Assembly: GCF_003131205.1 (NCBI RefSeq)
Contig: NZ_QFFY01000003.1
Location: 124,001 to 188,000 of the forward strand
Length of the DNA stretch: 64,000 nucleotides
Reading direction: 5' to 3'
From: Occallatibacter savannae
GTDB taxonomy: Bacteria > Acidobacteriota > Terriglobia > Terriglobales > Acidobacteriaceae
Below the pieces are notes generated by a model that saw only the letters and a program-made list of their open reading frames with translations, was not told the origin of the DNA and did not search any database. Made by a program: the position numbers and the translations under genes. The first letter of the stretch is position 1, and each line of letters starts with the position of its first letter. This document shows, one piece after another, positions 9,837-26,723 of the stretch.

Positions 9837-9846
9837 GGAAGCAGTC

Positions 9847-11847
9847 TCAACGAGCCCAGTTCAGTGACAGATACAGTCCGCGAGGCACAAAGGCGTTCAG
9901 AGTGTAGTCTTCCGGATAGAACTCCTGGTGGCTGGAGCGCAGAAGGTTCGTGCCGCCGACCGCGAATTCCAATCCTTCGCCAAAGCTGTGCGTAACGCGC
10001 ATGTCGAAGCGCGTATGTCCCGCAACAACCGCGATGGGAATGTTCAGTGAGGATGGGACGGTCGAATTGCCATTGAGAGCAGCGTTGATGCTCCAAGTCC
10101 GAGTTGCGCTCCAGTGAGCTCGAACGTCAAAGGTGTTGCGCGGCGTACTCCAGTCCTGTCCTCCGGAAGGCTGGACCATGACGTCCCCATGTTTGTGCAG
10201 CCTTGCCTGCATCCAGGCATAGCTGCCAAGCACTCGAACAGACGCGACTGGAGTCCAGCCTATCGATGCTTCGACGCCCTGAGCGTGAGCGGAAAAGCCA
10301 TTCACATATTCAAACGGCTGGACGAGACCTGCCGGCGGGCCCGGGAGAAGGTATGGCTCCCCTAAATACGTTGCCTGGAGGTCCGAATACCTGTTCAGGA
10401 ACCCCGCGAGGTCCGCGGAGAACCATTTTGCGAAGCGGCGGCGGTAGCCCACCTCTTCTGCGATTACGATTTCTGACTTTAAGCCGGGATTGCCGGAGAT
10501 CAATCCGAAAAGAGGCATTGCGTCCGCCTCGCCCATGGGGTAGAGAAACTGCACGTCTCGGTCCTGGTCAGATGGTGTACGGACTGCCCGGGACATTGCT
10601 CCCCATAGTGCCTGCGTCGAGTCCGGTGTCCAGATGAGTGACACGCGCGGCTGCCATTCGAAGTTCGTGTAGGAATTCCACTGGACCTTCGATCCCGCCG
10701 TGAGCGTCAGCTTGGCGGGTAGAAGCGGATAGCTGTCCTGCATGAAGGCGCTGAACAAGCTTACGAGATGGTCTGAGTGCGTGAAGTACGCCTGCTGCCC
10801 CAGAACCTTGTCGGATGTCCACCGGAAGCCAGTGCCCCAGACGATGTCATTACCGGAGCCGGTATTGATGTGGTGCTGGAAATCGATGTCGGCAACCCGC
10901 ATGTCGAGCTTCATGCCGATTTCGTTTCGGTGCTCATCTGTGAAGTAGCCCTGCAGAGCCAAATCGGACGTGCCGAACTTGCGTTCCCACTTCCCCATGG
11001 CGAAGCCGCCGGCACCATAGATCTTGCTGTAAGTAAATTCAGAAGGGCTGTAGCCGAAGCAGATTCGCTGCTGCTCCGGATTTCGAAACAGGTTCGCTTG
11101 AAAGGTCAGCTGATCCCGATTTGAGGCGTGCCAGTCGAGACGCCCCCCGATCCTTTCAGATGTGCCACCGTCCCCCGCGGATGCGTTATCGATGGAAAGC
11201 AAGTCTCTGTGCCGCACGTACCTGGCGTAAATGCGAGACCTGACGAGATTGCTCGATGCGAAACTCACGCGCTCAGATGCAACTTCATCGATGTTCCCGC
11301 CGTGCAGGACGGACAAGGTACGGTCAGAGGCGCGCGGCTTCGAAGTCACGATATTGATGACGCCATTTACGGCATTGGCTCCCCACATCGTTGCTCCGGG
11401 GCCGCGGACGATTTCGATTCGATCGATGTCTTCGATGAGCAGATCGTTCTGGTCCCACAGGGTTCCAGAATAGACGGGGTTGTAGATGCTCCGTCCATCG
11501 ATCATGATGAGCATTTTGTTGGCAAATCTGCTATTGAAGCCCCGTGCGCTCACGGCCCACTTATTCGCGTCGATCTGAGCGACTTCGATTCCTGGAACCA
11601 TGCGCAACGCTTCGGGCACGCTCGTCGCACCCGAGCGCATCAACTCCTCGTGCGTGATGACATAGACGGCGGCGGGAGTTTCGAAGAGGCTTTGATCGCG
11701 ACGCGATGCGGTGTTCACTTCAATTCTGGTGAGCTGCTCCAGATTGAGCGCAGACAGATCCGGAAGCGCGCCGTTCTGCGCGTTTGATTGGGAGCAGCAT
11801 CCTAGAACGACGATGGCTGCAATGGACGTGATTACACTCTTGATCAT
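9847..11847 (-). CDS. TonB-dependent outer membrane receptor
   Basis: This 666-residue protein has a signal peptide (SIAAIVVLGCCSQSNAQ), a plug domain at about 45-170 (TPAAVYVITHEELMRSGATSVPEALRMVPGIEV; DIDRIEIVRGPGATMWGANAVNGVINIVT) and a beta-barrel to the C-terminus, ending LYLSLNWAR. It lacks the carboxypeptidase-like N-terminal extension of many acidobacterial receptors. The plug class resembles vitamin B12/iron-complex receptors, but the ligand cannot be read from sequence. The receptor start overlaps the GGDEF-EAL gene stop by 4 bp and YfiR follows 10 bp downstream. This suggests that uptake or sensing at the outer membrane is wired to the signalling operon. Confidence 0.93.
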   Translation of the reverse strand: MIKSVITSIAAIVVLGCCSQSNAQNGALPDLSALNLEQLTRIEVNTASRRDQSLFETPAAVYVITHEELMRSGATSVPEALRMVPGIEVAQIDANKWAVSARGFNSRFANKMLIMIDGRSIYNPVYSGTLWDQNDLLIEDIDRIEIVRGPGATMWGANAVNGVINIVTSKPRASDRTLSVLHGGNIDEVASERVSFASSNLVRSRIYARYVRHRDLLSIDNASAGDGGTSERIGGRLDWHASNRDQLTFQANLFRNPEQQRICFGYSPSEFTYSKIYGAGGFAMGKWERKFGTSDLALQGYFTDEHRNEIGMKLDMRVADIDFQHHINTGSGNDIVWGTGFRWTSDKVLGQQAYFTHSDHLVSLFSAFMQDSYPLLPAKLTLTAGSKVQWNSYTNFEWQPRVSLIWTPDSTQALWGAMSRAVRTPSDQDRDVQFLYPMGEADAMPLFGLISGNPGLKSEIVIAEEVGYRRRFAKWFSADLAGFLNRYSDLQATYLGEPYLLPGPPAGLVQPFEYVNGFSAHAQGVEASIGWTPVASVRVLGSYAWMQARLHKHGDVMVQPSGGQDWSTPRNTFDVRAHWSATRTWSINAALNGNSTVPSSLNIPIAVVAGHTRFDMRVTHSFGEGLEFAVGGTNLLRSSHQEFYPEDYTLNAFVPRGLYLSLNWAR

Positions 11848-13979
11848 CTAAGTTCACCTGTGACGACGTCAGCGCCTGCTTCAAGATGCGCGGACTTCCA
11901 CCGGGTTGCCAGTAGCTCTTCCGTATCTGCTGCACTGACGGGTTTGGAAAAGAAATAGCCCTGGCCAAACTGGCATCCAAAGGCCAAGAGTTTTTGGACA
12001 TGCTCCTCGGACTCGACGCCCTCGGCGATGACGCCCATCTTCATGTTTTCAGCCATAGCAATGATGGTCTTGATCATGGAAGATTCGCCTGAGTCGATCA
12101 CGCTTGACGCCAGCTGCACGGTGAAGGACCTATCGATCTTGAGAGTGTCGAAGGGCAGGTCGCAAAGATATCTGAGGCTTGAGTATCCAGTGCCAAAGTC
12201 GTCGATCTTGAGGCCGACGCCCAAACGCTTGAGATCCTGGAGGAGCCTTTTTGCGGATTCAACGTCTTCGAGGAGAAGGCTCTCTGTGAGCTCAAGGTGG
12301 AGGCACTCGGGAGGCAATCCGGTTTCACAGAGGATTGCCTTAATCTGATTGACCAATCCAGGCTCGCGGCATTGCCGTACAGACAGATTGACGGCCACAT
12401 CGAGAGGAGGAACGTGCGGGAAGCGGGTGTGCCACTCATGCATCTGACGGCAGGCTTCCTGGAGCACCCAGGCACCTATGCCGATGATGAGACCCGTCTC
12501 CTCGGCTACCGGTATGAACTCTGCAGGCATGATGAGCCCTCGTACAGGATGGATCCACCGCACAAGCGCTTCAAAGCCGCGGATTTCTCCGGTCTCGAGC
12601 ATCACGCGTGGCTGGTAAAAGACGCGAAGTTCTCCACGATCGAGCGCGTGGCGAAGATCTGTCTCAGTTTGCAGCCGCAACCGGACGCGATCCTGCATTG
12701 CCGGTTCGAAGACTGCCCAACGCCCGCCGCCTTCGGCCTTAGCCGCGTACATTGCTGTATCCGCGTCGCGAAGCAGGAGAGAGGCATCCGTTGAAGTCTC
12801 AGAAGCCAAAACAATACCGATGCTCAACGAACAGTAAACTTCGTTTTCAGGCAAACGAAAGACGGGGCGCATGGACATGGCGATCCGTTCGCAAGCCTTT
12901 TCAGCCAGCATGCGATCGCCGATCCCGTTCAGAATGACGGCAAACTCGTCTCCCCCGAGCCGTGCGACCACGTCATTGTCGGCACGGCTGGAAATCTCGA
13001 TGTCTCGCACGGATCTGCGCAACCGGAGGGCAACTTCACGGAGCAATGTGTCGCCCGCAGCATGACCAAGACTGTCGTTGATCAGCTTGAAGCGATCCAC
13101 ATCGATGAAGACGACTGCGAAAGGGGCGCCTCCACTCTGGTGAAGGCGCAGCAACGAGTCAGAGAGCTGGGTTTCAAAAAGAAGGCGGTTGGCCAGACCC
13201 GTTAGAGAGTCGGTTGTAATCTTCTCGGTTACGTCGCTCTGAGAGCCTACCATGCGGACAGCCATACCTTGCTCGTTGCGAACAGAAAGAGCCCGAACGG
13301 ACATCCAGCGGTAGGATCCATCCCGATGGCGAAGGCGGTACTGGCACTCGAAGGTGGCATCGGCTCCGGGGGCGATATGTTGCTGAAAGGCCTCTTCGAG
13401 AAGTTCACGATCAGTTTCATGGACCCGAGAGATCCACTCTGAAGGATCTTGTGACAACTCGCTCTCGCCGTAGCCAACCATCTCCTTCCAGCGCGGCGAA
13501 TAGTAGACGATGTTACCGGCAAGGTCCCAATCCCAGAGGCCATCGTTGGCGCCGCGAGCGGCAAGAGCGTATCGCTCTTCGCTCTGGCGTAGAGCGGCTT
13601 CGGCCCGCTTGCGAGAGAGCTGCGAACGGATCCGGGCCATTGCAACGGAAAAGTCGATTGGCTTGGTGATGTAGTCGTTGGCGCCTTCGTCAAGGGCTTC
13701 GGCGATGCTCGTGCTGTCTGTCACGGCGGTGACCATGATGATGGGCAGTTCTTGAGCGGACCATGAGCGACGCAGGAACCTGAGCAGGTCAAGCCCGCTA
13801 AGTCCAGGCATCATGTAATCGAGGAGCACGAGGTCGAATGTCTGCCGCTGCAAGTGTTCGATCGCCTCATGAGCGGAAGCCGCAGGCACAGCGTGGAGCC
13901 CTTTGCGCTCGAGGCGACGCATACAGATGTCGCGATTCAGCTCTTCGTCGTCAACAACGAGTATTCGGTTGTAAATCAT
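11844..13979 (-). CDS. Response regulator with PAS, GGDEF and EAL domains
   Basis: The 711 residues comprise a receiver (1-120, phospho-acceptor Asp54 in VLLDYMMP, Lys106), PAS/PAC (~134-252), GGDEF (~257-425) and EAL (~437-690). Both enzymatic halves look intact: FIDVDRFKLIND and GGDEF (342-346) for cyclic-di-GMP synthesis; EALVRW (470-475), NLSVRQ, ELTES, DDFGTGYSSL, KIDRSF and GQGYFFSKP for hydrolysis. The RxxD product-inhibition site five residues before GGDEF is not canonical: the slot reads ADND (333-336) with Arg one position early. Which activity wins after phosphorylation is unknown. The start overlaps the stop of the upstream receiver gene by 4 bp. Confidence 0.95.
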   Translation of the reverse strand: MIYNRILVVDDEELNRDICMRRLERKGLHAVPAASAHEAIEHLQRQTFDLVLLDYMMPGLSGLDLLRFLRRSWSAQELPIIMVTAVTDSTSIAEALDEGANDYITKPIDFSVAMARIRSQLSRKRAEAALRQSEERYALAARGANDGLWDWDLAGNIVYYSPRWKEMVGYGESELSQDPSEWISRVHETDRELLEEAFQQHIAPGADATFECQYRLRHRDGSYRWMSVRALSVRNEQGMAVRMVGSQSDVTEKITTDSLTGLANRLLFETQLSDSLLRLHQSGGAPFAVVFIDVDRFKLINDSLGHAAGDTLLREVALRLRRSVRDIEISSRADNDVVARLGGDEFAVILNGIGDRMLAEKACERIAMSMRPVFRLPENEVYCSLSIGIVLASETSTDASLLLRDADTAMYAAKAEGGGRWAVFEPAMQDRVRLRLQTETDLRHALDRGELRVFYQPRVMLETGEIRGFEALVRWIHPVRGLIMPAEFIPVAEETGLIIGIGAWVLQEACRQMHEWHTRFPHVPPLDVAVNLSVRQCREPGLVNQIKAILCETGLPPECLHLELTESLLLEDVESAKRLLQDLKRLGVGLKIDDFGTGYSSLRYLCDLPFDTLKIDRSFTVQLASSVIDSGESSMIKTIIAMAENMKMGVIAEGVESEEHVQKLLAFGCQFGQGYFFSKPVSAADTEELLATRWKSAHLEAGADVVTGELR

Positions 13980-14353
13980 CGCGGAGGTTCTCCCACTGTC
14001 AACGAGGACATCTTATGAATGAGCCGCTCAAACTCGATTGGCTTAGTTTCGAACTCGTCGCATCCTGCATCGAGCGCAGATGCGCGATCATCCCGCATGG
14101 CGTGCGCGCTGAGCGCAATGATGGGGATGGAACGAAGGTTCGCGTCTGCTTTGATCTGGCGGGCGGCGTTCCATCCGCTGAGGAGTGGGAGGCTGAGGTC
14201 CATCAGGATCAGATCCGGCCGGTATTGCTCTGCCAGTCGCACTCCCTGGAGCCCGTCTTCGGCGCACGTGACCTGCCAGCCGCATTTGGTGAGACGGCGC
14301 GAAAGCATGTCGCGATTCAGTTCGTTATCCTCGACCAGCAAAACCCGCGCCAT
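13976..14353 (-). CDS. Stand-alone receiver (CheY-like response regulator)
   Basis: This 125-residue single-domain receiver has the acidic pair in LLVEDNE, phospho-acceptor Asp52 in LMDLSLP, Ser82 in ALSAH and Lys104 in ETKPI. Nothing follows the receiver, so it acts as a phosphate shuttle or by binding a partner. It overlaps the REC-PAS-GGDEF-EAL gene by 4 bp, suggesting equimolar production. A 229-bp gap without a gene separates it from the next receiver gene upstream. Confidence 0.93.
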   Translation of the reverse strand: MARVLLVEDNELNRDMLSRRLTKCGWQVTCAEDGLQGVRLAEQYRPDLILMDLSLPLLSGWNAARQIKADANLRSIPIIALSAHAMRDDRASALDAGCDEFETKPIEFERLIHKMSSLTVGEPPR

Positions 14354-14582: not shown

Positions 14583-15131
14583 TCAGCGCTTCGATGGATT
14601 CAGCAGCTTGAAATCGATGAGATGCTGTTTCAGCTGCGACGCACTGATAGGTTTCAACAGGTAGGCATCGCATAACGATCTGTAGGAGGAGCTGACCGTC
14701 TTGAGATCGCCCAATGCAGTCGTCATAAAGATTTTGACGCCAGAGGTGGACAGCACTCCCTCACGTTCTTCAATCAACCTGATCTGTCGAAGAGCTTCGG
14801 TGCCGTCCATTTCCGGCATATGCACATCCATGCAGATCAAATCGTATCTTCTTCCTGTTTTGAACACAGCGCCGAAGGCGTCAACGGCTTCCCTTCCATT
14901 GACTGCTACATGAGAGTCTCCGTAAGGAAGAAGGATGCCCTGCAACATGGCTCTCGAGGCGAAGTCGTCTTCAACGAGGAGAATCTTCAGTCTTGCCCTG
15001 CGTCGCAGGGTAGCCGGAAGAGATGCGTTGGCAACAGCGAATTGATTCCGCGAGCTGTCTTTGTTGTCATGGTTCAGGGTTTGATGCTTTCGCGCCTTGA
15101 ACTGCTGTCGTACTCCACTTGCTCTAGACAT
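14583..15131 (-). CDS. Receiver-domain protein with basic N-terminal extension
   Basis: The 182-residue product has an unassigned polar, basic N-terminus (~1-46), then a receiver with LLVEDD (51-56), phospho-acceptor Asp102 in CMDVHMPEMDG, the TTA switch segment near 137-139 and Lys160 in LLKPI. There is no output domain. GAGG lies five bases before the ATG at 15131. It sits 50 bp downstream of the Hpt gene on the same strand, consistent with an Hpt-receiver pair in a phosphorelay. Confidence 0.9.
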   Translation of the reverse strand: MSRASGVRQQFKARKHQTLNHDNKDSSRNQFAVANASLPATLRRRARLKILLVEDDFASRAMLQGILLPYGDSHVAVNGREAVDAFGAVFKTGRRYDLICMDVHMPEMDGTEALRQIRLIEEREGVLSTSGVKIFMTTALGDLKTVSSSYRSLCDAYLLKPISASQLKQHLIDFKLLNPSKR

Positions 15132-15181: not shown

Positions 15182-15529
15182 TCACTTTGTCCAGTTCCGA
15201 ATGACCGCCATGAGAAGTTCCGCCTGTGACTCCAGATCGGCAATCAAAACCGGCAGTTCACACGCGATTTCGTTCTGTTCAATCCTTTGTGCAACGTTGC
15301 TGAGGGCTTCACCGCCGACATTCGCGGCTGAACCCTTGATGGTGTGAATGGAACCCTGAAAGGCTTCTGTTGCGCCTTTCGCCATGCTTTCTTTAACTTC
15401 GTTGAGCAGAGCCGGCAGTCGACCAGCGAAGATGGCTGCGATTGCCCGGGCAAACTCTTCGTCGCCCATCATCCGTTGAACGAACGCCTCCCGGTTGAAG
15501 ACATCGCAGTCAAGGTGTCGCCGCAGCAT
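15182..15529 (-). CDS. Stand-alone Hpt (histidine phosphotransfer) protein
   Basis: The 115-residue helical protein carries IHTIKGSAANVGG, the Hpt motif, with phospho-acceptor His62. The start at 15529 is preferred over an upstream in-frame ATG at 15676 because GGAGGAGGG lies just before it and the 49-residue extension looks non-coding. Hpt proteins relay phosphate between receivers; the hybrid CheA on the opposite arm and the neighbouring receivers are candidate partners. It is the first gene of the minus arm. Confidence 0.88.
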   Translation of the reverse strand: MLRRHLDCDVFNREAFVQRMMGDEEFARAIAAIFAGRLPALLNEVKESMAKGATEAFQGSIHTIKGSAANVGGEALSNVAQRIEQNEIACELPVLIADLESQAELLMAVIRNWTK

Positions 15530-15756
15530 GATTCCCTCCTCCGACGCAGACGCCGAGGGAGCGTTCAAGTCTCTGACAGCGGCAGAAGTATTCCATCGTC
15601 GCGCTCTCGCGTAGCTCATTGCAGGTGGAACCCGATTGACTCCCTCATTGCTACCTATCGTCAGAAGCGGGATCACCCATGAGGGGAAGCGGACTCCGCA
15701 GCAGATGAGCGCGGAGAGATTGCTCGCTCAAATCTGCCGATAGACAAGCCAGAACC
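15530..15756. promoter_or_regulatory. Divergent regulatory region between the two signalling arms
   Basis: This 227-bp region separates the Hpt gene (minus) from the REC-PP2C gene (plus) and must hold the promoters for both arms of the locus. No strong sigma70 boxes were recognised. A low-quality pair TTGCTC (15720-15725) and TAGACA (15741-15746) faces the plus arm. An in-frame extension of the Hpt gene crosses part of it. Confidence 0.4.
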
Positions 15757-16899
15757 ATGTGTGATGACTGCGGCATGTCGCCGATGTATGACAAGGAACC
15801 CTCGCCGCTGGTGGTGGTTGTCGATGATGAGCCCAGCGTTATCCGATCGCTGACCGGATTTCTAGAACGAGCAGGATTGCGCACGGCGACTGCAGGCAGC
15901 TGTTCGACAGCTCTGCAACTGATCCGCTCAAAACGCCCCGATCTGATCCTGATGGATGTCGGACTGCCCGACGGTTCAGGCCTTGATCTTTGCCGCCTGT
16001 TGCAGACGGAAGGAACGACGTCGAGGACGCCGATCCTTTTCATTTCTGCGCACGATGATCCCTCTATCAAGGTGCGCGGTTTCGAAGCCGGGGGATTGGA
16101 CTTTATCACAAAGCCGATTGTGGGAGTTGAGGTCATTGCCCGAGTGCGAACGCATTTGCGGCTCAGACAGGCGTACGACCGGTTGTCAGAGCTTCATGCA
16201 GAACGACTGCACAACCTGGCAAGCGCGCAGCAGACTCTTATGCCGGCACTGAAGGATGATCACCCGACGCGGTTTTTTGCTTCGATCCGGCAGGCGTTGA
16301 CCGCGGGAGGCGACTTTTATGACGTGATTCCGACCGGCCCGGAGGTTGTGGATTATCTGGTGGCTGACGCGAGCGGGCATGACCTTGCGGCATCGCTATG
16401 GACTGCTTCATTGAAAGCACTGACTGCAGAATTCGCGACTCCCCTGAATACTCCCGGGGACATTGTGCATGCGCTGAACAGCTCATTGCACCACTTCATG
16501 CCTTCTGGGGCGTTCTTCACATTGACCTATGCAAGGCTCAACCATCGCACCAGGCGTCTTTCCTTGGTGAGCGCGGGTCAGCCGCCAGCGATCGTCATAC
16601 ACGCCACTGAAGAGAAGCCGCTGATCCTGAGGGTGGAAGGCGACGTGCTTGGAGCCTTCCCGGACGCTGTCTTTGGGAATATCGAGACGACCCTGCAGCC
16701 AAGCGATCGGCTTTGGCTCTATACGGACGGCCTGATTGAGAACGGCTGCACGCACGATCTTGGTCTGAGTCGACTCATCTCGGCCTGCATTTCCCGAAAG
16801 GATATGCCGCTTGCCATGGCAGTTCCCTCGGTGGTTGACGATCTGATCGGTGATCGCAGTGCAAACGACGACCTTCTGCTTCTAGGAGTGGATGTCTAA
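15757..16899 (+). CDS. Response regulator with PP2C-type (RsbU/SpoIIE-like) phosphatase output
   Basis: The 380 residues comprise a receiver (~17-138; Asp67 in LMDVGLPDGSG, Lys119 in ITKPI), a short helical linker, and a PPM/SpoIIE phosphatase domain (~170-380) with metal-site motifs GGDFYDV (184-190), VADASGHD (202-209), YTDGLIE (322-328) and NDDLLLL (370-376). In RsbU-type proteins this domain dephosphorylates a STAS anti-anti-sigma factor; a STAS protein and its likely kinase follow immediately. The receiver would let phosphorelay control the switch. The start is uncertain: ATG codons at 15757, 15775 and 15784 are in frame and none has a clear ribosome site. Confidence 0.92.
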   Translation: MCDDCGMSPMYDKEPSPLVVVVDDEPSVIRSLTGFLERAGLRTATAGSCSTALQLIRSKRPDLILMDVGLPDGSGLDLCRLLQTEGTTSRTPILFISAHDDPSIKVRGFEAGGLDFITKPIVGVEVIARVRTHLRLRQAYDRLSELHAERLHNLASAQQTLMPALKDDHPTRFFASIRQALTAGGDFYDVIPTGPEVVDYLVADASGHDLAASLWTASLKALTAEFATPLNTPGDIVHALNSSLHHFMPSGAFFTLTYARLNHRTRRLSLVSAGQPPAIVIHATEEKPLILRVEGDVLGAFPDAVFGNIETTLQPSDRLWLYTDGLIENGCTHDLGLSRLISACISRKDMPLAMAVPSVVDDLIGDRSANDDLLLLGVDV

Positions 16900-17384
16900 T
16901 GTCGTCTTCTCGGCGGAAATCAATCTGCAAATTCAGTCGGGAGATTGCTCTGCGCCTGGAGGCAGCCGAGCCGCTGTATGTAGAGCTCCGACTTTTTGTG
17001 CAGAGTGCAGGACTGGCGAGTCTTTGCTTCTCGATTGAACTGCTGGCGAGGGAATGCCTTAACAATGCAGTAATTCATGGCGCGCCCGCTGACGCCGATA
17101 ACACAGTTGGTCTGACCCTCTCTGTTGGCCGGAAATGGATCCGCCTCACAGTAGAGGATCACGGCCCGGGTTTCCGGTGGCAAAAGACACGGGAGGGGCT
17201 GCCGGACAGCGTCACGCCGTCCGGTCGCGGACTACAGATTTGCATGCTGTATGCAGAACGAGTCCGATTCACTCGCAGCGGAAACGCTGTGGAGATGTGG
17301 CTTGAGAAGCCGAGAGAAAGGGATGACCAGGATGGCCGCATGCAGTGTGAAACGCGAACAAGAAGACGTATTGATTCGGCTTGA
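16899..17384 (+). CDS. RsbW-like anti-sigma/serine kinase ATPase
   Basis: The 161-residue GHKL ATPase has the N-box ECLNNAVIHG (52-61), G1 box VEDHGPGF (85-92) and G2 SGRGLQI (108-114), as in RsbW/SpoIIAB. The family binds a target protein and can phosphorylate a STAS antagonist. The ATG shares one base with the upstream stop (TAATG), and the last ~60 bp overlap the STAS gene, so the three genes are translationally coupled. No sigma factor is encoded nearby in this arm, so the target may be something other than a sigma factor. Confidence 0.88.
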   Translation: MSSSRRKSICKFSREIALRLEAAEPLYVELRLFVQSAGLASLCFSIELLARECLNNAVIHGAPADADNTVGLTLSVGRKWIRLTVEDHGPGFRWQKTREGLPDSVTPSGRGLQICMLYAERVRFTRSGNAVEMWLEKPRERDDQDGRMQCETRTRRRIDSA

Positions 17385-17649
17385 TGGAAATCTGACCGCA
17401 CTTGTCGTCCCCGACCTTCAGGCAGAGCTAAAGAACCTGCTGACTGAGGGGATCCGCAGGCTCACTTTCGACCTCGCAGAAACAGCAATGCTCGACTCGA
17501 CAGGTATCGGCTTGCTGATCGCAGCGACAAACACTGCGATGCGTACTGGGGGAGAGCTTCGCGTGATCAACGCGTCGCCCGAGATCTTTCGGTTGCTGCA
17601 GAACATGAGGCTAACGGCACGTCTGAATGTGAGCGCCAGAGTCGCATAG
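17323..17649 (+). CDS. STAS domain protein (RsbV-like anti-sigma factor antagonist)
   Basis: The 108-residue STAS domain contains DVLIRLDGNL, TFDLAETAMLDSTGIGLL and LRVINASPEIFRLLQ. Ser59 in LDSTGIG is the expected phosphorylation site. It overlaps the RsbW-like gene by 62 bp and ends 10 bp before cheA. Its state would be set by the RsbW-like kinase and the REC-PP2C phosphatase just upstream. An alternative start at 17332 has better spacing to AAAGGG; the domain is unaffected. Confidence 0.9.
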   Translation: MTRMAACSVKREQEDVLIRLDGNLTALVVPDLQAELKNLLTEGIRRLTFDLAETAMLDSTGIGLLIAATNTAMRTGGELRVINASPEIFRLLQNMRLTARLNVSARVA

Positions 17650-17659: not shown

Positions 17660-20600
17660 ATGGATTCAGAACTGAATGTGGCACTTAACGATGAACTGCT
17701 TGTGGAGTTCATCAGCGAGTCTCGGGATCACCTCACTACGATTGAGTCGGACCTTCTGGCCATGGAGGAGGGAGGCTCCAACATCGATTCTGAGTTGGTG
17801 AACAAGGTCTTTCGGGCAGCGCACTCGATCAAGGGCGCAAGCGGATATTTCGGGCTAACGAAAGTGAAGGAACTTGCCCATCGCGCAGAAACTGTGCTCG
17901 ACATGATCCGCTCCGGCAGGATCCCACCGAATGCCGAAGTGACGAACCTGCTGCTGTGCGCTTTCGATCGACTGCGCGAGATGATCAACCGACCGGGCGA
18001 GAGCAACGGGACGAACATTGATGACCTGGTCGAGAGCCTGACCGCTCTCGCCTCCTCTTTTCTTCCGGGAGAGAAGAAGTCCTCCGTTTGGGAACGGGTC
18101 ACGCTTGAGCCTCAGGGTGGCGGCGCACCGGTCATGCTATCGAAGTTTGACTATGAACGGGCGAAAGATGCCGGCAATCGCTTCTACGTCGTGGAAATGG
18201 ATCTCATCCATGACATCGAACGACGCGGCGAAAATGTGCTCGCAGTGTTTCGCAGATTGTTTGCTGCCGGACAAGTCGTGGATTGCGAGGTCGACTTCGA
18301 ATCGGTTGGGACGCTTGATGATCCGATCTGCAACCGTGTGCCTTTGAAGCTTGTTCTCGCAACTACGCTCGGTCCTGACAAGATCGACGTTCTGTTTCCG
18401 GAGATGCAGGACAGAGTGAAGCTGCTCAGCGAGCATTCCGCGGAAGCGGCGAAAGAAGGATCTGAGAAGACGAGAGAGGATTCTGTCGCTGAAATGCAGG
18501 CAGTTCTCGAGACACCGGGCAGTGAAGTTGCACAAGCGCAGACGTCACATACATCCATCGGAACATCGCGCCCGGTAAAGTCAAACTCAACGGAGGATAG
18601 TGTCCGCGTAAATGTAGCAACGCTGGAGTTGCTCATGAATTTAGCCGGCGAGCTTGTACTCGGCCGTAATCAGCTGCGAGCTTCTATCGCGCAGAAGAAC
18701 GGGCAAGCTCTCGATGCCGCCGATCAGAGGATCAACCAGATAACGTCGGAGTTGCAGGACGCTGTCATGCAGACCCGGCTGCAGCCGATTGGAAACGTGT
18801 TCGGTAAATTCCCGCGGCTCGTGCGTGACCTAGCTGCTTCCCTCGGCAAAGAAGTGCAGCTGGAAATTCAAGGCAAGGAGGTGGCTCTCGACAGGAGCAT
18901 TATCGAGTCGCTCTCCGATCCATTGACCCACATGGTGAGGAATGCCGTCGATCACGGAATCGAACCTCCGGAGATCCGTATTCGAGCGGGAAAAGCTCGT
19001 CAGGGAGTACTGAATCTCGACGCACGCCATGAAGCAGGGCACGTGGTCGTAGAGATTGCCGATGATGGGCGCGGACTCGATGCCGAGCGGATCGCCAAGT
19101 CGGCAATGAGTAAAGGTCTGGTGACTGCCGAGAAGCTGGACCGGATGACCGCAAAGGAAAAGATGTCCTTGATTTTCCTGCCAGGTCTCTCAACCAACTC
19201 AGAGGTCAGCGAGATTTCAGGCCGGGGAGTTGGGATGGATGTGGTCAAAACGAACCTGGATAGGCTCGGCGGAAAGGTGGAGATCATCTCTACGGTGGGG
19301 AGCGGGACCAGGTTTCGCATCAAGCTGCCGCTGACCCTGGCCATCATTCCATCGCTGATTGTCTCTGTTGAAGGTGAGCGCTTCGCTATTCCACAAATCA
19401 ATGTTGAAGAGATGTGTCACGTGGTTCCCGGCCAGGGGAGAGCCCGCGTCGAAACCGTGGGCAACGCCCAAGTGTTGGTGTTGAGGGACCGCCTCATTCC
19501 GCTGGTGCGGCTCGGCGAATACCTTTCAGCAGGAGAGATCTCGGATCGGAGGGGCTCGGAGAGAGACTCCCAGCGCGAGAAAGGCGACGCGTCAAACATC
19601 GTTGTGGTTACAACGGGCGCCCAAAGTTATGGGTTGGTTGTAAGCGGTTTCCACGATGCCGAAGAGATTGTGGTGAAGCCACTCGGAGGCCACTTGAAGG
19701 GACTGGAGGAGTATGCAGGCGCCACCATCTTAGGGGATGGTTCACTCGCCCTGATTCTCGACGTTGCCAACCTTGCTGTTAAAGCGAGCCTGAGTGCGAC
19801 CGGTATTTCCGATACCGCCGCAAAGATCGCCCACGAGGACGCATCGAACGACCGGCATACTTTTGTCCTGTTTCACAACCCGCCCAACGTGCTGTGCGCT
19901 CTTCCCCTGAACACTGTGAGGCGGATCGAGCGCGTTGATGCCGCTTGCGTGGAGATGATCGGCGGTAGACGCACGATGAAACTCGATGGTGGCCTGCTGC
20001 CGCTGGCAACATTATCAGACGCTGCGCAGGTGGAGCCGATTCCCGCCTCTGGTGAACTTGCAGTCATCCTCGCCACAGTACGTGGAGTAGACATCGGGCT
20101 GCTTGGAACTTTGCCGGTTGACGTAGTGGAAACCAGCGGGAGCGTCGAACATACGACCCACCGGCAGAGCGGAATCGCAGGATCGACAATCATTCAGGGC
20201 AGGACGGCACTTATCGTCGACCTCTATGAGCTGGCTGATTCGCTGCTTCCGGAACGCGGAAACGGAAGACTGGCAACAGAGAGGCCAGAGCCGGGAATCG
20301 AGCGACAGCTGACGGTTCTGCTGGCAGAAGACTCGGACTTCTTCCGGTCGCAGATTGAGCGCTTCCTCAAGGAGGATGGCTATGCGGTGCTGGCGGCGAA
20401 TGACGGAGAGGCTGCGTGGGAGTTGCTGCTGAGAAGCCTGGACGAAGTGAGTGCAGTTGTCACCGACATTGAGATGCCGCGGCTTGACGGCCTGGGTTTG
20501 ACGCGGCGGATTCGAGCCGACGCTCTAACCGCACACCTGCCTGTGATTGCGCTGACTTCGCTGGCTGCGGACGATGATGCGGCGCGCGGGCTGGCCGCCG

Positions 20601-20692
20601 GTATTAGCGACTATCAGACGAAGCTCGACCGAGACAGGCTGCTGGAGCGATTGAGGGAATACACGCATGCGGCAGCAGCGGCCAATGTTTGA
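17660..20692 (+). CDS. cheA: Hybrid chemotaxis histidine kinase CheA with two CheW-like domains and C-terminal receiver
   Basis: The 1010-residue protein has an Hpt P1 (1-105, AAHSIKGASG, phospho-acceptor His55), an unassigned alpha/beta segment and acidic linker (~150-310), a P3 dimerisation domain (~314-378), P4 ATPase (HMVRNAVDHG at 424-433, DDGRGLD at 468-474, SGRGVGMDVV), P5/CheW (~557-710), a second CheW-like region (~733-865) and a receiver (~885-1005, Asp936 in VTDIEMPRLDG, Lys near 989). Fused receivers are common in chemosensory systems that control functions other than flagella, often acting as phosphate sinks. No flagellar or pilus motor gene is visible in the window. AGGAGC precedes the ATG at 17660; a TTG at 17657 abuts it. 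Confidence 0.95.
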   Translation: MDSELNVALNDELLVEFISESRDHLTTIESDLLAMEEGGSNIDSELVNKVFRAAHSIKGASGYFGLTKVKELAHRAETVLDMIRSGRIPPNAEVTNLLLCAFDRLREMINRPGESNGTNIDDLVESLTALASSFLPGEKKSSVWERVTLEPQGGGAPVMLSKFDYERAKDAGNRFYVVEMDLIHDIERRGENVLAVFRRLFAAGQVVDCEVDFESVGTLDDPICNRVPLKLVLATTLGPDKIDVLFPEMQDRVKLLSEHSAEAAKEGSEKTREDSVAEMQAVLETPGSEVAQAQTSHTSIGTSRPVKSNSTEDSVRVNVATLELLMNLAGELVLGRNQLRASIAQKNGQALDAADQRINQITSELQDAVMQTRLQPIGNVFGKFPRLVRDLAASLGKEVQLEIQGKEVALDRSIIESLSDPLTHMVRNAVDHGIEPPEIRIRAGKARQGVLNLDARHEAGHVVVEIADDGRGLDAERIAKSAMSKGLVTAEKLDRMTAKEKMSLIFLPGLSTNSEVSEISGRGVGMDVVKTNLDRLGGKVEIISTVGSGTRFRIKLPLTLAIIPSLIVSVEGERFAIPQINVEEMCHVVPGQGRARVETVGNAQVLVLRDRLIPLVRLGEYLSAGEISDRRGSERDSQREKGDASNIVVVTTGAQSYGLVVSGFHDAEEIVVKPLGGHLKGLEEYAGATILGDGSLALILDVANLAVKASLSATGISDTAAKIAHEDASNDRHTFVLFHNPPNVLCALPLNTVRRIERVDAACVEMIGGRRTMKLDGGLLPLATLSDAAQVEPIPASGELAVILATVRGVDIGLLGTLPVDVVETSGSVEHTTHRQSGIAGSTIIQGRTALIVDLYELADSLLPERGNGRLATERPEPGIERQLTVLLAEDSDFFRSQIERFLKEDGYAVLAANDGEAAWELLLRSLDEVSAVVTDIEMPRLDGLGLTRRIRADALTAHLPVIALTSLAADDDAARGLAAGISDYQTKLDRDRLLERLREYTHAAAAANV

Positions 20693-20778: not shown

Positions 20779-22470
20779 ATGAAGATGCGCGGACAGTTGA
20801 TGCTCGCATTCGCCGCGGTTCTTGGACTAGTGACGATCTCATCCATGGTGGTGTATTGGAGAACCGTGGAAATCAAAAGCAAGCTCGGACGGTTCAAGCA
20901 AGTGCGAATGCCTCTTACGCTCGCGGTGGCCGCTATCGATTCAGACCGGGAGCGGGCCAAATCCGAGATAAGAGCTGTATTTCTCGACGTACGACGCGGG
21001 GATCTGAAGTCAGCGCAACTTTCAAAGCAGAGGTTCGAAGATGCGTGGAAGGATCTTAATGGAGCTTTCGCGCCGCTTCCCGAACTCAGCAAGAGCTTCG
21101 TCTTGCAGGCCAACAAGGACCGCGTAGCCCGGCTTGCCGATGAACTTCCGAAGATGGAACGAGAGGAAGGCACCATTATTGCTGAAGCGATCGCGGGGGG
21201 CCAGAGACGCATCACGGCGGTGGAGAACGACTACCGGACGCGGGTTCAGCCGTCGGGCGATGCGGTTATGACGGTCACCGATGAACTGGGCGACAGTTCT
21301 ACGTCATTGATGAAGGATGACGTTGACGAGAGTACCCGGTTCCAGAGTCAGTCGGAGATGATCCTGATCGTCACGACCTTGCTGGCGGTCGGGGCCGGTA
21401 TGGGCATTGCGATCGTGCTGAGCGGACGCATGGCGACCGTTCTGTCCCTGGTGGCAAACCGACTCAAAGCCATTGCAAGTGGAGACTTGAGCGGCACGAG
21501 GCTGCCGCAAACGATTCTTGAACGACCTGATGAGTTCGGGGAGTTGGCAGTGGCGTCTCAGACGATGTCTGAGAATCTCCGCACGTTGCTGGGCGACATC
21601 TCCGCGGGCGTGCGCACACTAGCGGCGTCTGCGAGCGAACTCACGGCAGTGGCGAACCAGACCGCCGAGTCTACCGCTTCGACGATGAACCGGGCGCGAA
21701 CAGTGGCGGCGGCAGCCGAGGAGACGAGCGCGAACACAATCTCGATCGCGGCAGGCATGGAACAGTCTTCGAGCAGCCTGTCTTCCGTTGCTGCGGCAAC
21801 CGAGCAGATGAGTGCCACGGTTGGGGACATCTCCTCGAACACTTCAAGAGCTCATGCCATCAGCGAACAGGCGACTGCGCGGGCCCAGACCATTGCTCAG
21901 CAAATGCAAAAACTCGGCCAGGCCGCGCAGGAGATTGGCCAGGTGACCGAGACCATCACCCACATCTCGGCTCAGACCAATCTGCTGGCGCTGAACGCGA
22001 CGATCGAAGCGGCTCGTGCCGGGACAGCAGGCAAAGGCTTTGCTGTGGTGGCCAGCGAAATCAAGGAACTGGCCAGGCAAACGGCGGGGGCCACCGAAGA
22101 CATTAAAGCGCGCATCGGCGGTATCCAGCGGTCGACCGGAGCGGCCATCACCGACATTGGACAGATCACGACGGTGATCAAGGATGTGGGAACGATCGTG
22201 ACCAGCATCGCGGCAGCCATTGAGGAGCAAGCTACGGTGACCCGGGATGTGGCCGGCAACATTGCCCAGGCTTCGAGCGGCGTGCGCGATGCAAATGATC
22301 GTGTATCACAGACCGCGCAGGTATCGAGAAGCATCGCAGAAGACATCAGCAACGTCACTGCGGCGGTTACGGAAATCGAGAGGGGCGGCGAACACGTTCA
22401 GGACCGCGCGATCGAATTGACTCGCCTAGCGGAGCAACTCGGGGCACAGGTAGCTCAGTTCAGGGTTTAG
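20779..22470 (+). CDS. Methyl-accepting chemotaxis protein (four-helix-bundle sensor)
   Basis: The 563-residue receptor has a membrane helix (~7-27), a largely helical periplasmic domain (~28-190) like the 4HB_MCP type, a second helix (~193-215), HAMP (~217-272) and a long signalling coiled coil. The hairpin tip is recognisable as [20 protein letters not shown]. There is no C-terminal CheR-tethering pentapeptide; it ends VAQFRV. The signalling half is very close to that of the next gene, so the pair probably arose by duplication. The ligand is unknown. Confidence 0.95.
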
Positions 22471-22536
22471 AAGGACGTGTAGATCAGGCCCATGCCGCGA
22501 CCGGTCGGCAGTGATCACCGGGAACAGGAAACAAAA

Positions 22537-24255
22537 ATGTTCAGACGAATGAAGCTCTCCGGCAAGGTCGCAGGAACGGTGGTAGCCGTTCTTGCGGTTT
22601 CCTCGATTATCAGTTTCTGGATAACGCAGCGGCGCATCAACCGGCAGGCAGAAGAGGCTTTCCGGGACAAGATTCGCCAGATTACCGGAATGACAACGGC
22701 AACGCAGCGCTGGTATTCGAGCAATCTGGATACTCTGGTCCCGGGCGGGAAGTTCAAGAGCCTCAAACAGGTTCCAGTCGTAGCGGCATGGAGCGTCGCA
22801 GAAGCGTACGCACAACGGAACGGGATGAAATTCAGCACACCCTCCCTGGCGCCGAGGAATCCTCTGCATCGGCCCGATGAGTTTGAACGGCGCGCACTGC
22901 TCGCGTTTCAGGCCGATCCCAATCTGCAGGAATTTTCAGAGCGGGAGGGCAGCGGAGATCGGCAGGTCATGCGTTATGCGCAGCCGGTTCGCCTGACACA
23001 GGATTGTCTGGTTTGCCACGGAGATCCCGCCGGATCGCGAGATGCAGTGGGAGGAATCAGGGAAGGCTACAAGGTTGGCGATCTTCGCGGCGCGTTCTCT
23101 GTCACGGCTTCGACCGAGGAACTGGTATCAGCTTCAAACGCCAACTCTGTGGCAACGTTTCTGCTGTCGATGTTGACGCTTCTCGCATCATCGGCTGCAG
23201 TGTACCTCGCGATTCGCAGGCTCGTGATTAGGCCGCTGGGACGCTCGGTTCAGCTTGCCAACCGGATAGCGAACAGCGACCTGAGTTCAGCTGATCTCGC
23301 CGTGGAGTCGGAGGACGAAATTGGCGACGCAACGAAGGCTCTGAACGCGATGAAGAACAGTCTTCGTCAGCTGCTCGCAGCGATCTCAGCTGGTGTTCAA
23401 GCACTGAGCGCCTCGGCGGCTGATCTGGCCGCTTCCTCAAGGCAGACCGTATCCGGGACTGCGGAAGCATCGGAGAAGGCGCACACGGTAGCTGCCGCGG
23501 CAGAAGAGGCAAGCGCTAACACGATTTCGATCGCTGCCGGCATGGAGCAATCATCGAGCAGCCTGTCCTCGATAGCCGCAGCAACCGAACAAATGAGCGC
23601 CACGGTGGGCGACATCTCGTCGAACACTGCCCGAGCGCACATGATCAGCGAACAGGCGACTGCACAGGCTCAAACCATAGCCGGGCAGATGCAGAGGCTT
23701 GGGCAAGCCGCGCAGGAGATCGGCAATGTAACTGAGACGATCACAAACATCTCGGCTCAGACCAATCTTCTCGCTCTCAATGCGACGATTGAAGCCGCCC
23801 GTGCAGGAACGGCTGGCAAAGGTTTCGCCGTGGTCGCCAACGAGATCAAGGAGCTGGCGCGCCAGACTGTGGATGCAACGGAGGATATCAAGGCGCGTAT
23901 CGGCAGTATCCAGCAGTCTACCGGAGCAGCGATTACAGAGATCGGACAGATCACGACGGTAATTGGAGATGTGGGCACGATCGTGACAAGCATTGCGGCG
24001 GCGATTGAGGAGCAGGCAACTGTAACGCGAGACGTGGCCGGGAACATCGCCCAAGCGTCACAAGGCGTGCGCGACGTCAATGAGCGGGTTTCACATACGG
24101 CCGTCGTTTCGAAGAGCATCGCCGCAGATATAGCCGGAGTCAACGGTGCAGTAAGTGACATACGCCAGGGCGGAGAGCGGGTGCAAACGAATGCAGCCGA
24201 TCTCTCGAGACTGGCAGAACAGCTGGGCGCGCGAGTAGCCCAGTTCAAGGTCTGA
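22537..24255 (+). CDS. Methyl-accepting chemotaxis protein with Tll0287-like (DUF3365) haem-binding sensor
   Basis: From the ATG at 22537 (AGGA eight bases upstream) the product is 572 residues: helix ~11-29, a periplasmic Tll0287-like/DUF3365 domain (~35-195), helix ~205-226, HAMP and a signalling coiled coil ending VAQFKV. The sensor holds CLVCHGDP, a CxxCH motif (Cys157, Cys160, His161) for covalent c-type haem, followed by [13 protein letters not shown], typical of the family. It likely senses redox state or a diatomic gas (inference). Haem attachment needs a cytochrome c maturation system outside this window. Confidence 0.92.
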
Positions 24256-24263: not shown

Positions 24264-24749
24264 ATGCAGGAAAAAGTCGTCAACTCTGAATATGCCGGTG
24301 AACTGCTGGTCTGCACCTTCGCACTCGGCGAAAACGGGGTTTTCGGGATCGATGCCACGCTGGTCCAGGAGGTAGCGATGATGGGCGAGTTGACTCCGGT
24401 CCGCCATGCACCGGCTTTTGTGGCAGGGATTCGCAATCTGCGGGGGCGGATCATCACGGTTATCGATTTGTGCGAGCGGCTCGGGCTTGGCGTGGTTCGC
24501 GCCACTCCGGAGACACGTCTTCTGATCGCAGACTGGAATGGAGAACCGGTTGGCCTGCTGGTGGACAGGGTTGAGGGGACACTTGCAATGGAAGCCGGCG
24601 CTCTGCAGCGCGCCCCATCCAATATATCGAACGTGCAATCGGAGAAACTTCGCGGGGTCTTCCGAACGGGACACGGGCTGGCAGGACTTCTGCACCTGCC
24701 CTCCGTACTTGACGGCAACAGTGGAAGCGACACGTCGTTGGCTGAGTAA
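24264..24749 (+). CDS. cheW: CheW-like coupling protein
   Basis: The 161-residue protein is a single CheW domain: TFALGENGVFGIDATLVQEV at the N-terminus, FVAGIRNLRGRIITVIDLCERLGL in the middle and PVGLLVDRVEG later. It bridges chemoreceptor tips to CheA. It starts 9 bp after the second receptor gene and is followed by cheB, so it belongs to the same operon. Confidence 0.94.
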   Translation: MQEKVVNSEYAGELLVCTFALGENGVFGIDATLVQEVAMMGELTPVRHAPAFVAGIRNLRGRIITVIDLCERLGLGVVRATPETRLLIADWNGEPVGLLVDRVEGTLAMEAGALQRAPSNISNVQSEKLRGVFRTGHGLAGLLHLPSVLDGNSGSDTSLAE

Positions 24750-24768: not shown

Positions 24769-25890
24769 GTGAAGGTCTTGGTTGCTGACGATTCCGTTCT
24801 CTTTCGACGTCTGCTCGCCGACGTCCTCGCCACGATCCCGGGTGTGGAGATTGTCGGAACTGCCGCAAACGGCAGGATCGCCTTGCAGAAGGTGAAGGAA
24901 TTGAGTCCCGATCTACTGACGCTTGACATTGAGATGCCTGAACTGGATGGCGTCGGAGTGATCGACGCGCTTCTACGCCAGGGATACCCCAAGTTGGAAG
25001 TGCTGGTGGTCAGTTCGACTTCACCGCGCGCCGGCGATCTTACGATGCAAGCGATGGAGAGAGGCGCATTCGACTTCATATCGAAACCGGAGGCGAATGA
25101 TTCCGATCAAGCCAGGCGAACGTTGCAGTCGGATCTGGTGCCGAGACTTCGGGCGATTGCGCATCGTCTCGAGGTTCGATCTATCCTTGGAGGAAAACGG
25201 TCGCAGGAGCAGCCAAGTGGGCCATCGACGGGGCCGGACGCTTCTCCAGAGCAGACGTCTGTCGAGCGAGTCGCCGGGCGTATGCAGCGTATATTTCGTC
25301 CTGCCAGGCCGGAGATGGTGCTGATCGGTGTCTCGACAGGAGGGCCAAAAGCTTTGGGTGAGCTACTTCCGGCCCTTCCGCGAGATCTTGGTGTACCGAT
25401 CGTCATTGTTCAACATATGCCTCCCGTATTTACGAAGTCGCTCGCAGACAGCCTTGCTTCAAAATGCCTGGTGCGAGTGGTCGAGGCGGTGCAGGGCGAG
25501 GCGATCGTGGCGAATACGGCCTATATTGCTCCGGGCGGCCGCCATCTGCGATTGGACACAAGCGCTGATGGTCGTCCTGTGGTGAACTTGAGCGACGATC
25601 CGCCCGAGAACAATTGCCGGCCTGCTGTTGACTGTCTACTTCGTTCGGCAGCAAACCGGATTCCGGGACGTTCGTTGGCGGTAATTCTGACGGGCATGGG
25701 GAATGATGGGACTCTTGGCTTGCGCCTGCTCAAGAGGCACGGCTGCTATGCAATCGCGCAAGATGAAGCGAGTTGCGTTGTATATGGCATGCCGAAATCC
25801 ATTGTCGATGCAGGGCTGGCCGATGTGGTTCTGCCTTTGAACGCGATCGCACCGCACATCGTTGCGGCAGTGCGTGAAGGACGGCGATGA
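24769..25890 (+). CDS. cheB: Chemotaxis methylesterase/glutamine deamidase CheB
   Basis: A GTG start at 24769 is set by a strong GAGGAGG six bases upstream; the longer upstream frame overlaps cheW and is rejected. The 373 residues comprise a receiver (phospho-acceptor Asp53 in TLDIEMPELDG, Lys106 in ISKPE), a Pro/Ser-rich linker (~140-178) and the methylesterase domain with catalytic triad Ser189 (GVSTGG), His216 (VQHMP) and Asp313 (GMGNDG). It removes methyl groups from receptor glutamates when phosphorylated by CheA. Confidence 0.96.
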   Translation: MKVLVADDSVLFRRLLADVLATIPGVEIVGTAANGRIALQKVKELSPDLLTLDIEMPELDGVGVIDALLRQGYPKLEVLVVSSTSPRAGDLTMQAMERGAFDFISKPEANDSDQARRTLQSDLVPRLRAIAHRLEVRSILGGKRSQEQPSGPSTGPDASPEQTSVERVAGRMQRIFRPARPEMVLIGVSTGGPKALGELLPALPRDLGVPIVIVQHMPPVFTKSLADSLASKCLVRVVEAVQGEAIVANTAYIAPGGRHLRLDTSADGRPVVNLSDDPPENNCRPAVDCLLRSAANRIPGRSLAVILTGMGNDGTLGLRLLKRHGCYAIAQDEASCVVYGMPKSIVDAGLADVVLPLNAIAPHIVAAVREGRR

Positions 25891-26723
25891 CCGTAGTACT
25901 GCGACGTGAGGAGATGCCGGCATGGTCGCGGTATATACAGGACATTTGCGGCGTTCATCTGGATGACTCGAAGGGCTACCTACTGGAGACCCGCCTCGGG
26001 AGCTTGCTCGTCGAGGTTAACGCATCGAGCTTTTCAGAACTTGTGCAAAAGGCGAAGGCGGATCGGACAACGCGCCTGCGCAATAAGATCATTGAGGCGA
26101 TCACGACCAATGAAACTTCCTTCTTTCGAGACAGTGCGCCGTTCGATCTACTGCGGCACAAACTGATTCCTGATCTGATTGATAAGAGGAGCAGCAACGG
26201 CGGCCGCGTCACTCTTCGAATCTGGAGTGCGGCGTGCTCCACCGGACAGGAAGCTTACAGCACCGGGATTGTGTTGAAGGAGTTGCTGGGCGACCTTAGC
26301 CGGTACGACATCAGGATCCTGGGGACGGATATCTCGAATAAAGTTGTCGCTCATGCGAGTTATGGAGAGTACAACCGGCTAGAGGTGGAACGGGGTCTGT
26401 CTCCGGATGCCGTCGCGCGCCACTTCATTCGATCAGGAGATCGATGGAAAATTCGGGATGAGATTCGAGCGATGGCAAGTTTCAGGACCATGAATCTGCT
26501 GGAGCCGTTTTCATTTCCGACACCCTTCGACATCATTTTCTGTCGCAACGTAGCGATCTACTTTACCGACCCGGATAGAACCAGGCTCTTCCAGAACCTC
26601 GCGAAATGCCTGGCTAAAGATGGCGGCCTTATCATCGGCGCGACCGAATCAATCTCGGGATTTTGTCAGGAGTTGGAGCCTAAACGCTACCTGCGCTCCG
26701 TCTTCTATCAACGGAAGCAGTAG
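25887..26723 (+). CDS. cheR: Chemotaxis protein methyltransferase CheR
   Basis: The 278-residue protein has the N-terminal helical CheR domain (~10-70), TNETSFFRD (74-82) and the SAM-binding domain with IWSAACSTGQEAYS (112-125), LGTDIS (145-150) and FCRNVAIYF (218-226). It methylates receptor glutamates. Its ATG overlaps the cheB stop by 4 bp. It lacks TPR repeats and is the last gene of the plus arm. Confidence 0.96.
   Translation: MTVVLRREEMPAWSRYIQDICGVHLDDSKGYLLETRLGSLLVEVNASSFSELVQKAKADRTTRLRNKIIEAITTNETSFFRDSAPFDLLRHKLIPDLIDKRSSNGGRVTLRIWSAACSTGQEAYSTGIVLKELLGDLSRYDIRILGTDISNKVVAHASYGEYNRLEVERGLSPDAVARHFIRSGDRWKIRDEIRAMASFRTMNLLEPFSFPTPFDIIFCRNVAIYFTDPDRTRLFQNLAKCLAKDGGLIIGATESISGFCQELEPKRYLRSVFYQRKQ

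Follow-up and report, generated by a model that had tools for sequence, protein, structure and literature searches.

In the acidobacterium Occallatibacter savannae, a three-gene switch stands at the head of a chemotaxis operon and consists of a response-regulator phosphatase that joins a receiver (REC) domain to a PP2C domain of the RsbU/SpoIIE type, an RsbW-like GHKL Ser/Thr kinase, and a single-domain STAS protein. The switch occupies positions 15757-17649 of the 64,000-nucleotide stretch that was analyzed (hereafter the window; contig NZ_QFFY01000003.1, positions 124,001 to 188,000). The cluster of REC-PP2C, kinase, STAS, and cheA genes is not a product of chance, because the same order is found in every one of the seven own-phylum loci (window included) and in named relatives. 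Judged from sequence and gene context, it is reasonably probable that the switch constitutes a dedicated Ser/Thr output branch of the chemosensory system, in which phosphorylated CheA (CheA~P) would act on REC-PP2C, REC-PP2C on STAS, and STAS on a target other than a sigma factor, i.e., the Che complex or a cyclic di-GMP (c-di-GMP) enzyme.

The REC-PP2C protein of 380 amino acids (aa) comprises Response_reg (residues 19-130) and SpoIIE (residues 201-379) domains according to Pfam and ends after the PP2C part, the kinase being encoded by a separate next gene (Table 1). The stop codon of the phosphatase gene and the start codon of the kinase gene share one base (TAATG), the STAS gene starts within the kinase gene, and 10 bases lie between its stop at 17649 and the cheA ATG at 17660, which bears out the original prediction of three overlapping or abutting genes that lead into cheA. 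The predicted completeness of the Rsb-type switch was likewise confirmed, since the PP2C domain has its metal-binding aspartates, the GHKL kinase its N, G1, and G2 boxes, and the single STAS protein a phosphorylatable serine. Intact residues include D23/D24/D67/K119 in the receiver, with D67 as its aspartate, the PP2C metal ligands D186, D204, D324, and D371/D372, and the kinase motifs E52..N56..H60, D87-x-G-x-G91, and G109-R-G111; the roles of these and of the STAS positions are those usual in the families. The phosphosite D58-S59 of the STAS protein is numbered from the ATG at 17323, and the serine that had been named Ser59 keeps this number from that start only, as the starts of the relatives in the own-phylum alignment coincide with the ATG at 17332 and favor Ser56. 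Profiles of the kinase and the STAS protein matched the solved structures of SpoIIAB (1til, 2e-7) and SpoIIAA (1th8, 2.9e-10), and positions 7-322 of the REC-PP2C profile matched solved chain 3eq2 ("probable two-component response regulator") at 2.3e-30. The kinase scored 21.4 bits with the NCBIfam SpoIIAB/anti-sigma F equivalog and did not reach its cut-off of 135. A plasmid search with REC-PP2C (at least 5000 records) gave, among the matches listed, identities of at most 31%, with 30 matches covering most of the query.

Within its own phylum, the module is patchy yet coherent. Besides the window's genome (G000), six carriers were found (G063, G586, G562, G653, G206, and G169), by searching 150 family genomes with the kinase as a single protein and 396 phylum genomes plus 397 order genomes with a two-row profile, at most nine candidates per genome being scored in the profile searches; these sets share members and sample larger groups. 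Weak kinase matches were common at the thresholds used (107/150, 276/396, and 350/397 genomes), and the standout carriers G586, G562, G653, G206, and G169 reached 115 to 158 bits, with the next best at 63. The G063 kinase gave 99 bits with the single protein, and its match to the profile holds by construction. The order REC-PP2C, RsbW, STAS, cheA, mcp (for methyl-accepting chemotaxis protein), cheW, cheB, cheR was present in all seven loci, window included, the deviations being a second mcp in the window and, in L116, additional genes that separate mcp from cheW. The latter are two genes of 392 and 150 aa (L116:15591-17202) that have no Pfam match.

Named genomes were scanned once with the REC-PP2C alignment, and the best 80 of 567 confirmed stretches were kept as named loci; the counts obtained are lower bounds because many stretches stop at contig ends. 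REC-PP2C was accompanied by the kinase in 29 loci, 23 of which also encoded STAS and 22 of those a CheA-profile gene as well. REC-PP2C and a CheA-profile gene occurred together in 24/80 loci, and a pairing with a cheA gene in 22/80 (20 of the 22 with kinase and STAS) when L134 and L143 were excluded, whose CheA-profile gene encodes an Hpt-STAS protein lacking the kinase core. Record titles and tree labels place these 22 loci in six named phyla: Acidobacteriota (L127, L129), Verrucomicrobiota (L119, L120), Fibrobacterota (L122), Bacteroidota (L175), Lentisphaerota (L144, L145), and Thermodesulfobacteriota, next to loci labeled Proteobacteria (L141, L158) or unclassified (L121). No RsbW gene lies between REC-PP2C, STAS, and CheA at L122:9998-14651 and L175:9974-14667. 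In a quick REC-PP2C tree with midpoint root and 10 open forks, the window grouped with three own-phylum relatives (Shimodaira-Hasegawa-like approximate likelihood ratio test 99) and then with two Verrucomicrobiota rows (90), and this group sat in a 12-row set of mixed phyla (99), with three named Acidobacteriota rows apart. The mixed-phyla grouping suggests that the REC-PP2C module moved between phyla.

Conservation was assessed in the 31 named loci that were module-positive (REC-PP2C profile of at least 190 bits plus RsbW of at least 30 or CheA of at least 150 bits), the other 49 of the 80 not being so. Asp67, which had been put forward as the receiver aspartate, was present in 30/30 readable loci. 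The PP2C aspartates 186, 204, 324, 371, and 372 were found in 31/31 loci and aspartate 189 in 30/31, kinase Glu52 and Asn56 in 29/29, and the first G-box Asp87 in 27/28 readable loci; the Asp-Ser pair of STAS was conserved in 26/26 named domains (25 loci) and in 7/7 own-phylum sequences. The STAS gene lies directly upstream of the CheA-profile gene on the same strand in all 29 relative loci that show both, or 30/30 with the window. Loci L133, L137, and L146 were left out of this count and of the sigma factor scan of stretches, and L126 was lost from it due to the choice of an overlapping frame by the gene caller. The adjoining gene encodes a CheA of full layout in 24/29 relatives (25/30 with the window), the remaining five having an Hpt-STAS protein (L124, L152, L134, and L143) or a CheA split in two, with the Hpt piece ahead of the kinase piece (L135). 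In L144 and L145 the STAS-cheA pair is intact even though REC-PP2C and kinase are encoded at the opposite end of the operon. Moreover, the pairwise distances of the four proteins correlated in all six pairs (r 0.34 to 0.79, 25 to 31 loci, using the longest CheA-profile gene per locus, which in L134 and L143 is the Hpt-STAS protein), and for each pair 0 of 1000 permutations reached the observed correlation, to which uncontrolled shared ancestry contributes.

In variant loci, gene fusions link STAS with its kinase and with phosphotransfer of the CheA type. Kinase and STAS form one open reading frame (ORF) in L114 and in 7/80 named loci (L124, L126, L133, L134, L139, L143, and L152), with both domains displayed by Pfam for L124 and L139. 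The structural model of the L124 fusion was of good quality (predicted local distance difference test [pLDDT] 84.4, predicted template modeling score [pTM] 0.83) and had solved SpoIIAB and SpoIIAA/RsbV chains among its best matches. We read this fusion as an indication that STAS itself may be the effector. The gene that follows it in L124, L134, and L143 encodes a single chain made up of Hpt, CheA P2-like, and STAS_2 parts, the L143 match being barely over the cut-off; proteins of similar appearance are encoded in L152 and L126. The stretches examined of L134 and L143 revealed no CheA kinase, and the two culture-collection Solidesulfovibrio strains (L124, L152) that carry the variant had no MCP, cheW, cheB, or cheR gene within the stretch. 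The Hpt-P2-STAS model was poor (pLDDT 63.4, pTM 0.44), with a P1 part that matched CheA P1 (1i5n, 1.5e-4) and a STAS part that matched solved STAS only at E 0.16, so that the STAS call in these proteins rests on Pfam. The fusion of Hpt to STAS would place STAS at CheA-like phosphotransfer. In addition, a solo Hpt gene adjoins the switch in the window and L137, and a kinase with an Hpt stretch does so in L055, L116, and L139, which implies that REC-PP2C may take phosphate from two sources.

Taken together, the synteny, the conservation of Asp67, and the Hpt domains beside some loci are compatible with the originally proposed route by which CheA or Hpt phosphate would act on STAS, and a wiring from CheA over REC-PP2C to STAS appears likely. 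Receptors and CheW would control CheA, and CheA~P, probably together with phosphorylated local Hpt, would phosphorylate Asp67 of REC-PP2C, thereby altering PP2C activity on phosphorylated STAS. The RsbW-like kinase, as its family and residues indicate, would phosphorylate the conserved STAS serine, and the phosphorylation state of STAS would decide its binding partner. As in the case of HsbA or BgrV (see below), the STAS protein would most likely act as effector in its own right, rather than a sigma factor that the kinase holds. The target predicted for STAS is either the CheA complex, which would be gated or receive feedback, or a neighboring c-di-GMP enzyme in some lineages; a sigma factor is an unlikely target.

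Several observations weigh against a dedicated output branch of this kind. CheA could signal via its own REC domain or a distant CheY, and the stretches of L122 (Fibrobacteres) and L175 (Bacteroidetes) yielded no RsbW alongside their REC-PP2C, STAS, and CheA. The correlation of distances was moderate for PP2C with CheA (r 0.55) and weak for RsbW with CheA (0.34), and ancestry alone gives some correlation. The phosphorylatable serine is missing from the STAS part of the Hpt fusions in 4/4 aligned proteins (L124, L152, L134, and L143). The c-di-GMP branch is confronted with G586, G653, and G206, which had no GGDEF match on the contig of the module, and the non-sigma target with G653, G206, and G169, which may hold other alternative sigma factors, with the assembly of G586, which is 97% complete in about 90 contigs, and with extracytoplasmic function (ECF) sigma factors, which lay outside the searches. 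Finally, no experiment on this wiring was found in the literature.

The alternative that survives best is that STAS regulates local c-di-GMP enzymes, with the Che system as input, as a special case of the output branch; we regard this as possible but clearly less probable than the general form. The nearest GGDEF match to the kinase gene lies at about 4 kb in G000, 2.5 kb in G562, 4 kb in G169, and 13 kb in G063, which puts a GGDEF gene within 5 kb in 3/7 own-phylum genomes; with 5 to 21 GGDEF matches per genome, simple arithmetic would expect one at this distance in a few per cent of cases. In the window, the operon itself holds REC-PP2C, and the GGDEF protein nearest to it is the divergently encoded REC-PAS-GGDEF-EAL protein, a lineage-specific candidate target that is shared with G562. 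The divergent REC, GGDEF-EAL, TonB, YfiR, and kinase genes are kept in G562 and not in the other five carriers, and the window and G562 are not independent because they belong to the same genus. REC-HD (HD_5) proteins adjoin L128 and L131, L149 has an HD-domain match next to it, and GGDEF genes lie near L124 and L126, but the other named stretches scanned had no GGDEF, HD_5, or HD match at E 1e-6, and the type of enzyme varies by lineage. Precedents exist in HsbA-HsbD and BgrV-BgrR (PMC5085249, PMC8457831). The GGDEF distances in the seven carriers do not support GGDEF-EAL as a universal target, and the pattern supports a c-di-GMP connection that would be lineage-specific only.

A more tentative proposal is a chemosensory class, found in several phyla, in which the partner switch would gate the receptor array: CheA~P would activate REC-PP2C, dephosphorylated STAS would bind CheA P1-P2, and kinase and phosphatase would form a second adaptation or gain loop beside CheR/CheB methylation, of which the Hpt-P2-STAS proteins of Desulfovibrionaceae could be a hard-wired form. 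Two independent modules in one operon, with the switch answering hybrid kinases via Hpt and the Che system using the CheA REC or a distant CheY, seem rather unlikely. The solo Hpt or Hpt-bearing kinase genes that adjoin the switch and the REC domain of CheA would suit such a separation, but it is opposed by the adjacency of STAS to the CheA-profile gene in all 30 loci that have both, including the split modules of L144 and L145, and by the Hpt-STAS fusions.

A classical Rsb switch, in which the RsbW-like protein would be the anti-sigma factor of an unlinked sigma factor, appears improbable. The closest solved relative of the kinase by sequence is indeed anti-sigma F SpoIIAB, the nearest NCBIfam model to the STAS protein is that of an anti-sigma factor antagonist (score under its cut-off), and G653, G206, and G169 have three, three, and four matches to sigma region 3. 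However, a Sigma70_r3 search of the window's genome, not covering ECF factors, found region 3 in only two proteins, RpoD and a FliA-like factor, and no SigB/SigF-type factor. G562 had two matches and G586 one (RpoD by size and score), so that the module is retained in a genome where no alternative region-3 sigma factor was found (again ECF aside); G063 had no region-3 match, RpoD included, and its absences say little. Neither the window nor 35 stretches from relatives gave a sigma70-like ORF when queried with RpoD and FliA, in agreement with the original prediction that this arm encodes no sigma factor, and the kinase-STAS fusion in several species also speaks against the classical switch. A SigB/SigF target was thus looked for in the window's genome, the six carriers, and near the loci, with ECF factors not searched, and a classical Rsb output is judged unlikely because G000 has just RpoD and the FliA-like factor, and G586 just RpoD and no FliG. 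With respect to the non-sigma target that had been suggested, a SigB-like factor is unlikely here within the reach of the region-3 search, but one of the examples given, the GGDEF-EAL protein, is weak as a general target. Control of flagellar gene expression via FlgM/FliA in the manner of HsbA could invoke FliG and the FliA-like factor beside a FliM-like gene in G000 (the names FliM and FliA were assigned by eye on the basis of sequence and neighbors) and the binding of HsbA to FlgM in Pseudomonas aeruginosa (PMC5085249), but is very unlikely as a general target, as the module is kept in G586 and G063, the two of the seven carriers in which FliG was not found (no FlgM search was made). The window's genome has 27 SpoIIE-type, 14 STAS, and 21 HATPase_c_2 matches (12 over the cut-off; some in frames long enough for histidine kinases), yet two region-3 sigma factors.

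The window resembles RsbU-RsbW-RsbV and SpoIIE-SpoIIAB-SpoIIAA in having all three protein classes with their catalytic residues and the closest solved kinase and STAS structures by sequence, and differs from them in that no SigB/SigF-type factor was found in its genome (ECF not searched). The Wsp system (alternative cellular function type) comprises MCP, CheW, CheA-REC, CheB, and CheR, with the REC-GGDEF protein WspR as output regulator other than CheY. The window operon likewise has CheA-REC, MCP, CheW, CheB, CheR, and a non-CheY response regulator, but its output is REC-PP2C with RsbW and STAS, not REC-GGDEF, and its single cheW gene is accompanied by a CheA that has two CheW stretches. Chain 3eq2, which matches the REC-PP2C profile, is presumably RssB of Pseudomonas, a regulator that acts on RpoS; in contrast to this likeness, the NCBIfam Pseudomonas RssB model gave 74.8 against a cut-off of 700.

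Of the known systems, HptB-HsbR-HsbA-HsbD of P. aeruginosa by comparison works most alike, with a receiver-controlled phosphatase and a kinase activity combined in HsbR, Hpt input, the phospho-Ser56 STAS protein HsbA with FlgM and HsbD as partners, and a c-di-GMP connection (PMC5085249); in the window, by contrast, the kinase has its own gene and the unit lies within a cheA-mcp-cheW-cheB-cheR operon. In the partner switch BgrSTUWV-BgrR of Sinorhizobium meliloti, the STAS protein BgrV controls a diguanylate cyclase, such control being reported for HsbA and BgrV, and no chemosensory operon is mentioned in the available part of the source (PMC8457831). In Campylobacterota, a STAS-alone gene is found among chemosensory cluster genes (in a legend that covers classes F3/F7/F8/F9/F14, the class being unspecified), with no REC-PP2C/RsbW head described in the accessible text, and a REC-PP2C-STYK fusion is proposed to act on a chemoreceptor via STAS (PMC9239204). 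The latter shares the three activities and the idea of a chemosensory target with the window, but is a bifunctional fusion supposedly fed by an unknown histidine kinase, and there is no che operon headed by the three genes in what is accessible of that source. STAS is not mentioned in the accessible part of the Desulfovibrio vulgaris CheA3 paper (PMC3944678), and PMC4618731 and PMC5706961 have, as far as available, no bearing on the question. Beyond the Campylobacterota proposal, no description of a che operon with a REC-PP2C/kinase/STAS head was found in the literature covered, which excludes most subscription papers and all preprints.

The other genes of the operon and of the divergent arm are included in Table 1. 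The start of cheB was placed by where the CheB domain match begins. The Tll0287-like MCP has a CxxCH motif and is possibly a heme-bearing sensor for that reason. Beyond the GGDEF-EAL gene, on the minus strand at 7741-11847, lie a TonB-dependent receptor-like gene (named by eye), a YfiR-like gene (102 bits, under the NCBIfam cut-off of 125), and a CHASE8 histidine kinase gene, a set that is kept in G562. A second CheA is encoded elsewhere in the window's genome by a 728-aa frame (G000:C4:271433, L201). A HEAT-repeat protein recurs near the operons of L132, L138, L141, L142, L144, L145, L147, and L163, with a C-terminal receiver in the four that were scanned with Pfam (L132, L138, L141, and L144).

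Table 1. Genes of the switch, the chemotaxis operon, and the divergent arm of the window, and fused genes of relatives.
Feature	Position	Strand	Evidence
REC-PP2C (RsbU/SpoIIE-type) response-regulator phosphatase	15757..16899	+	Pfam Response_reg 1.1e-25, SpoIIE 2.8e-34
RsbW/SpoIIAB-like GHKL Ser/Thr kinase	16899..17384	+	HATPase_c_2 1.7e-12
Single-domain STAS protein (RsbV/SpoIIAA-like)	17323..17649	+	PF01740 1.3e-13
cheA: Hpt, P2-like region, dimerization, ATPase, two CheW stretches, REC	17660..20692	+	Domains; AAHSIKG at residue 53, VTDIEMP at 934
Methyl-accepting chemotaxis protein	20779..22470	+	MCPsignal
Methyl-accepting chemotaxis protein, Tll0287-like sensor domain	22492..24255	+	PF11845 7.7e-29, HAMP, MCPsignal
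cheW	24264..24749	+	CheW 7.4e-26
cheB, probable GTG start, open frame extends further upstream	24769..25890	+	NCBIfam CheB 374 bits, over cut-off
cheR	25887..26723	+	NCBIfam CheR 1.8e-35, under model cut-off; homolog in relatives
Single-domain Hpt protein (divergent arm), which may be a second source of phosphate for REC-PP2C	15182..15676	-	Hpt 4.9e-9; HTIKG motif
Stand-alone receiver protein	14583..15131	-	Response_reg
Stand-alone receiver protein	13976..14353	-	Response_reg
REC-PAS-GGDEF-EAL protein, lineage-specific candidate target	11844..13979	-	GGDEF and EAL motifs present; shared with same-genus G562
Kinase-STAS fusion	L114:9503-10258	-	
Kinase-STAS fusion	L124:11104-11889		
Hpt-P2-STAS_2 protein	L124:11909-13084		
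Hpt-P2-STAS_2 protein	L134:11825-12940		
Hpt-P2-STAS_2 protein	L143:11841-12950		

The conserved REC-PP2C/RsbW/STAS head brings a His-Asp relay together with STAS partner switching within a single operon, and its arrangement across several phyla looks like a little-described output route for chemosensory systems. If the proposed wiring is true, the operon head would provide a link between chemoreceptors and serine phosphorylation, which is relevant as many chemosensory systems have unknown outputs (PMC9239204, section 6).

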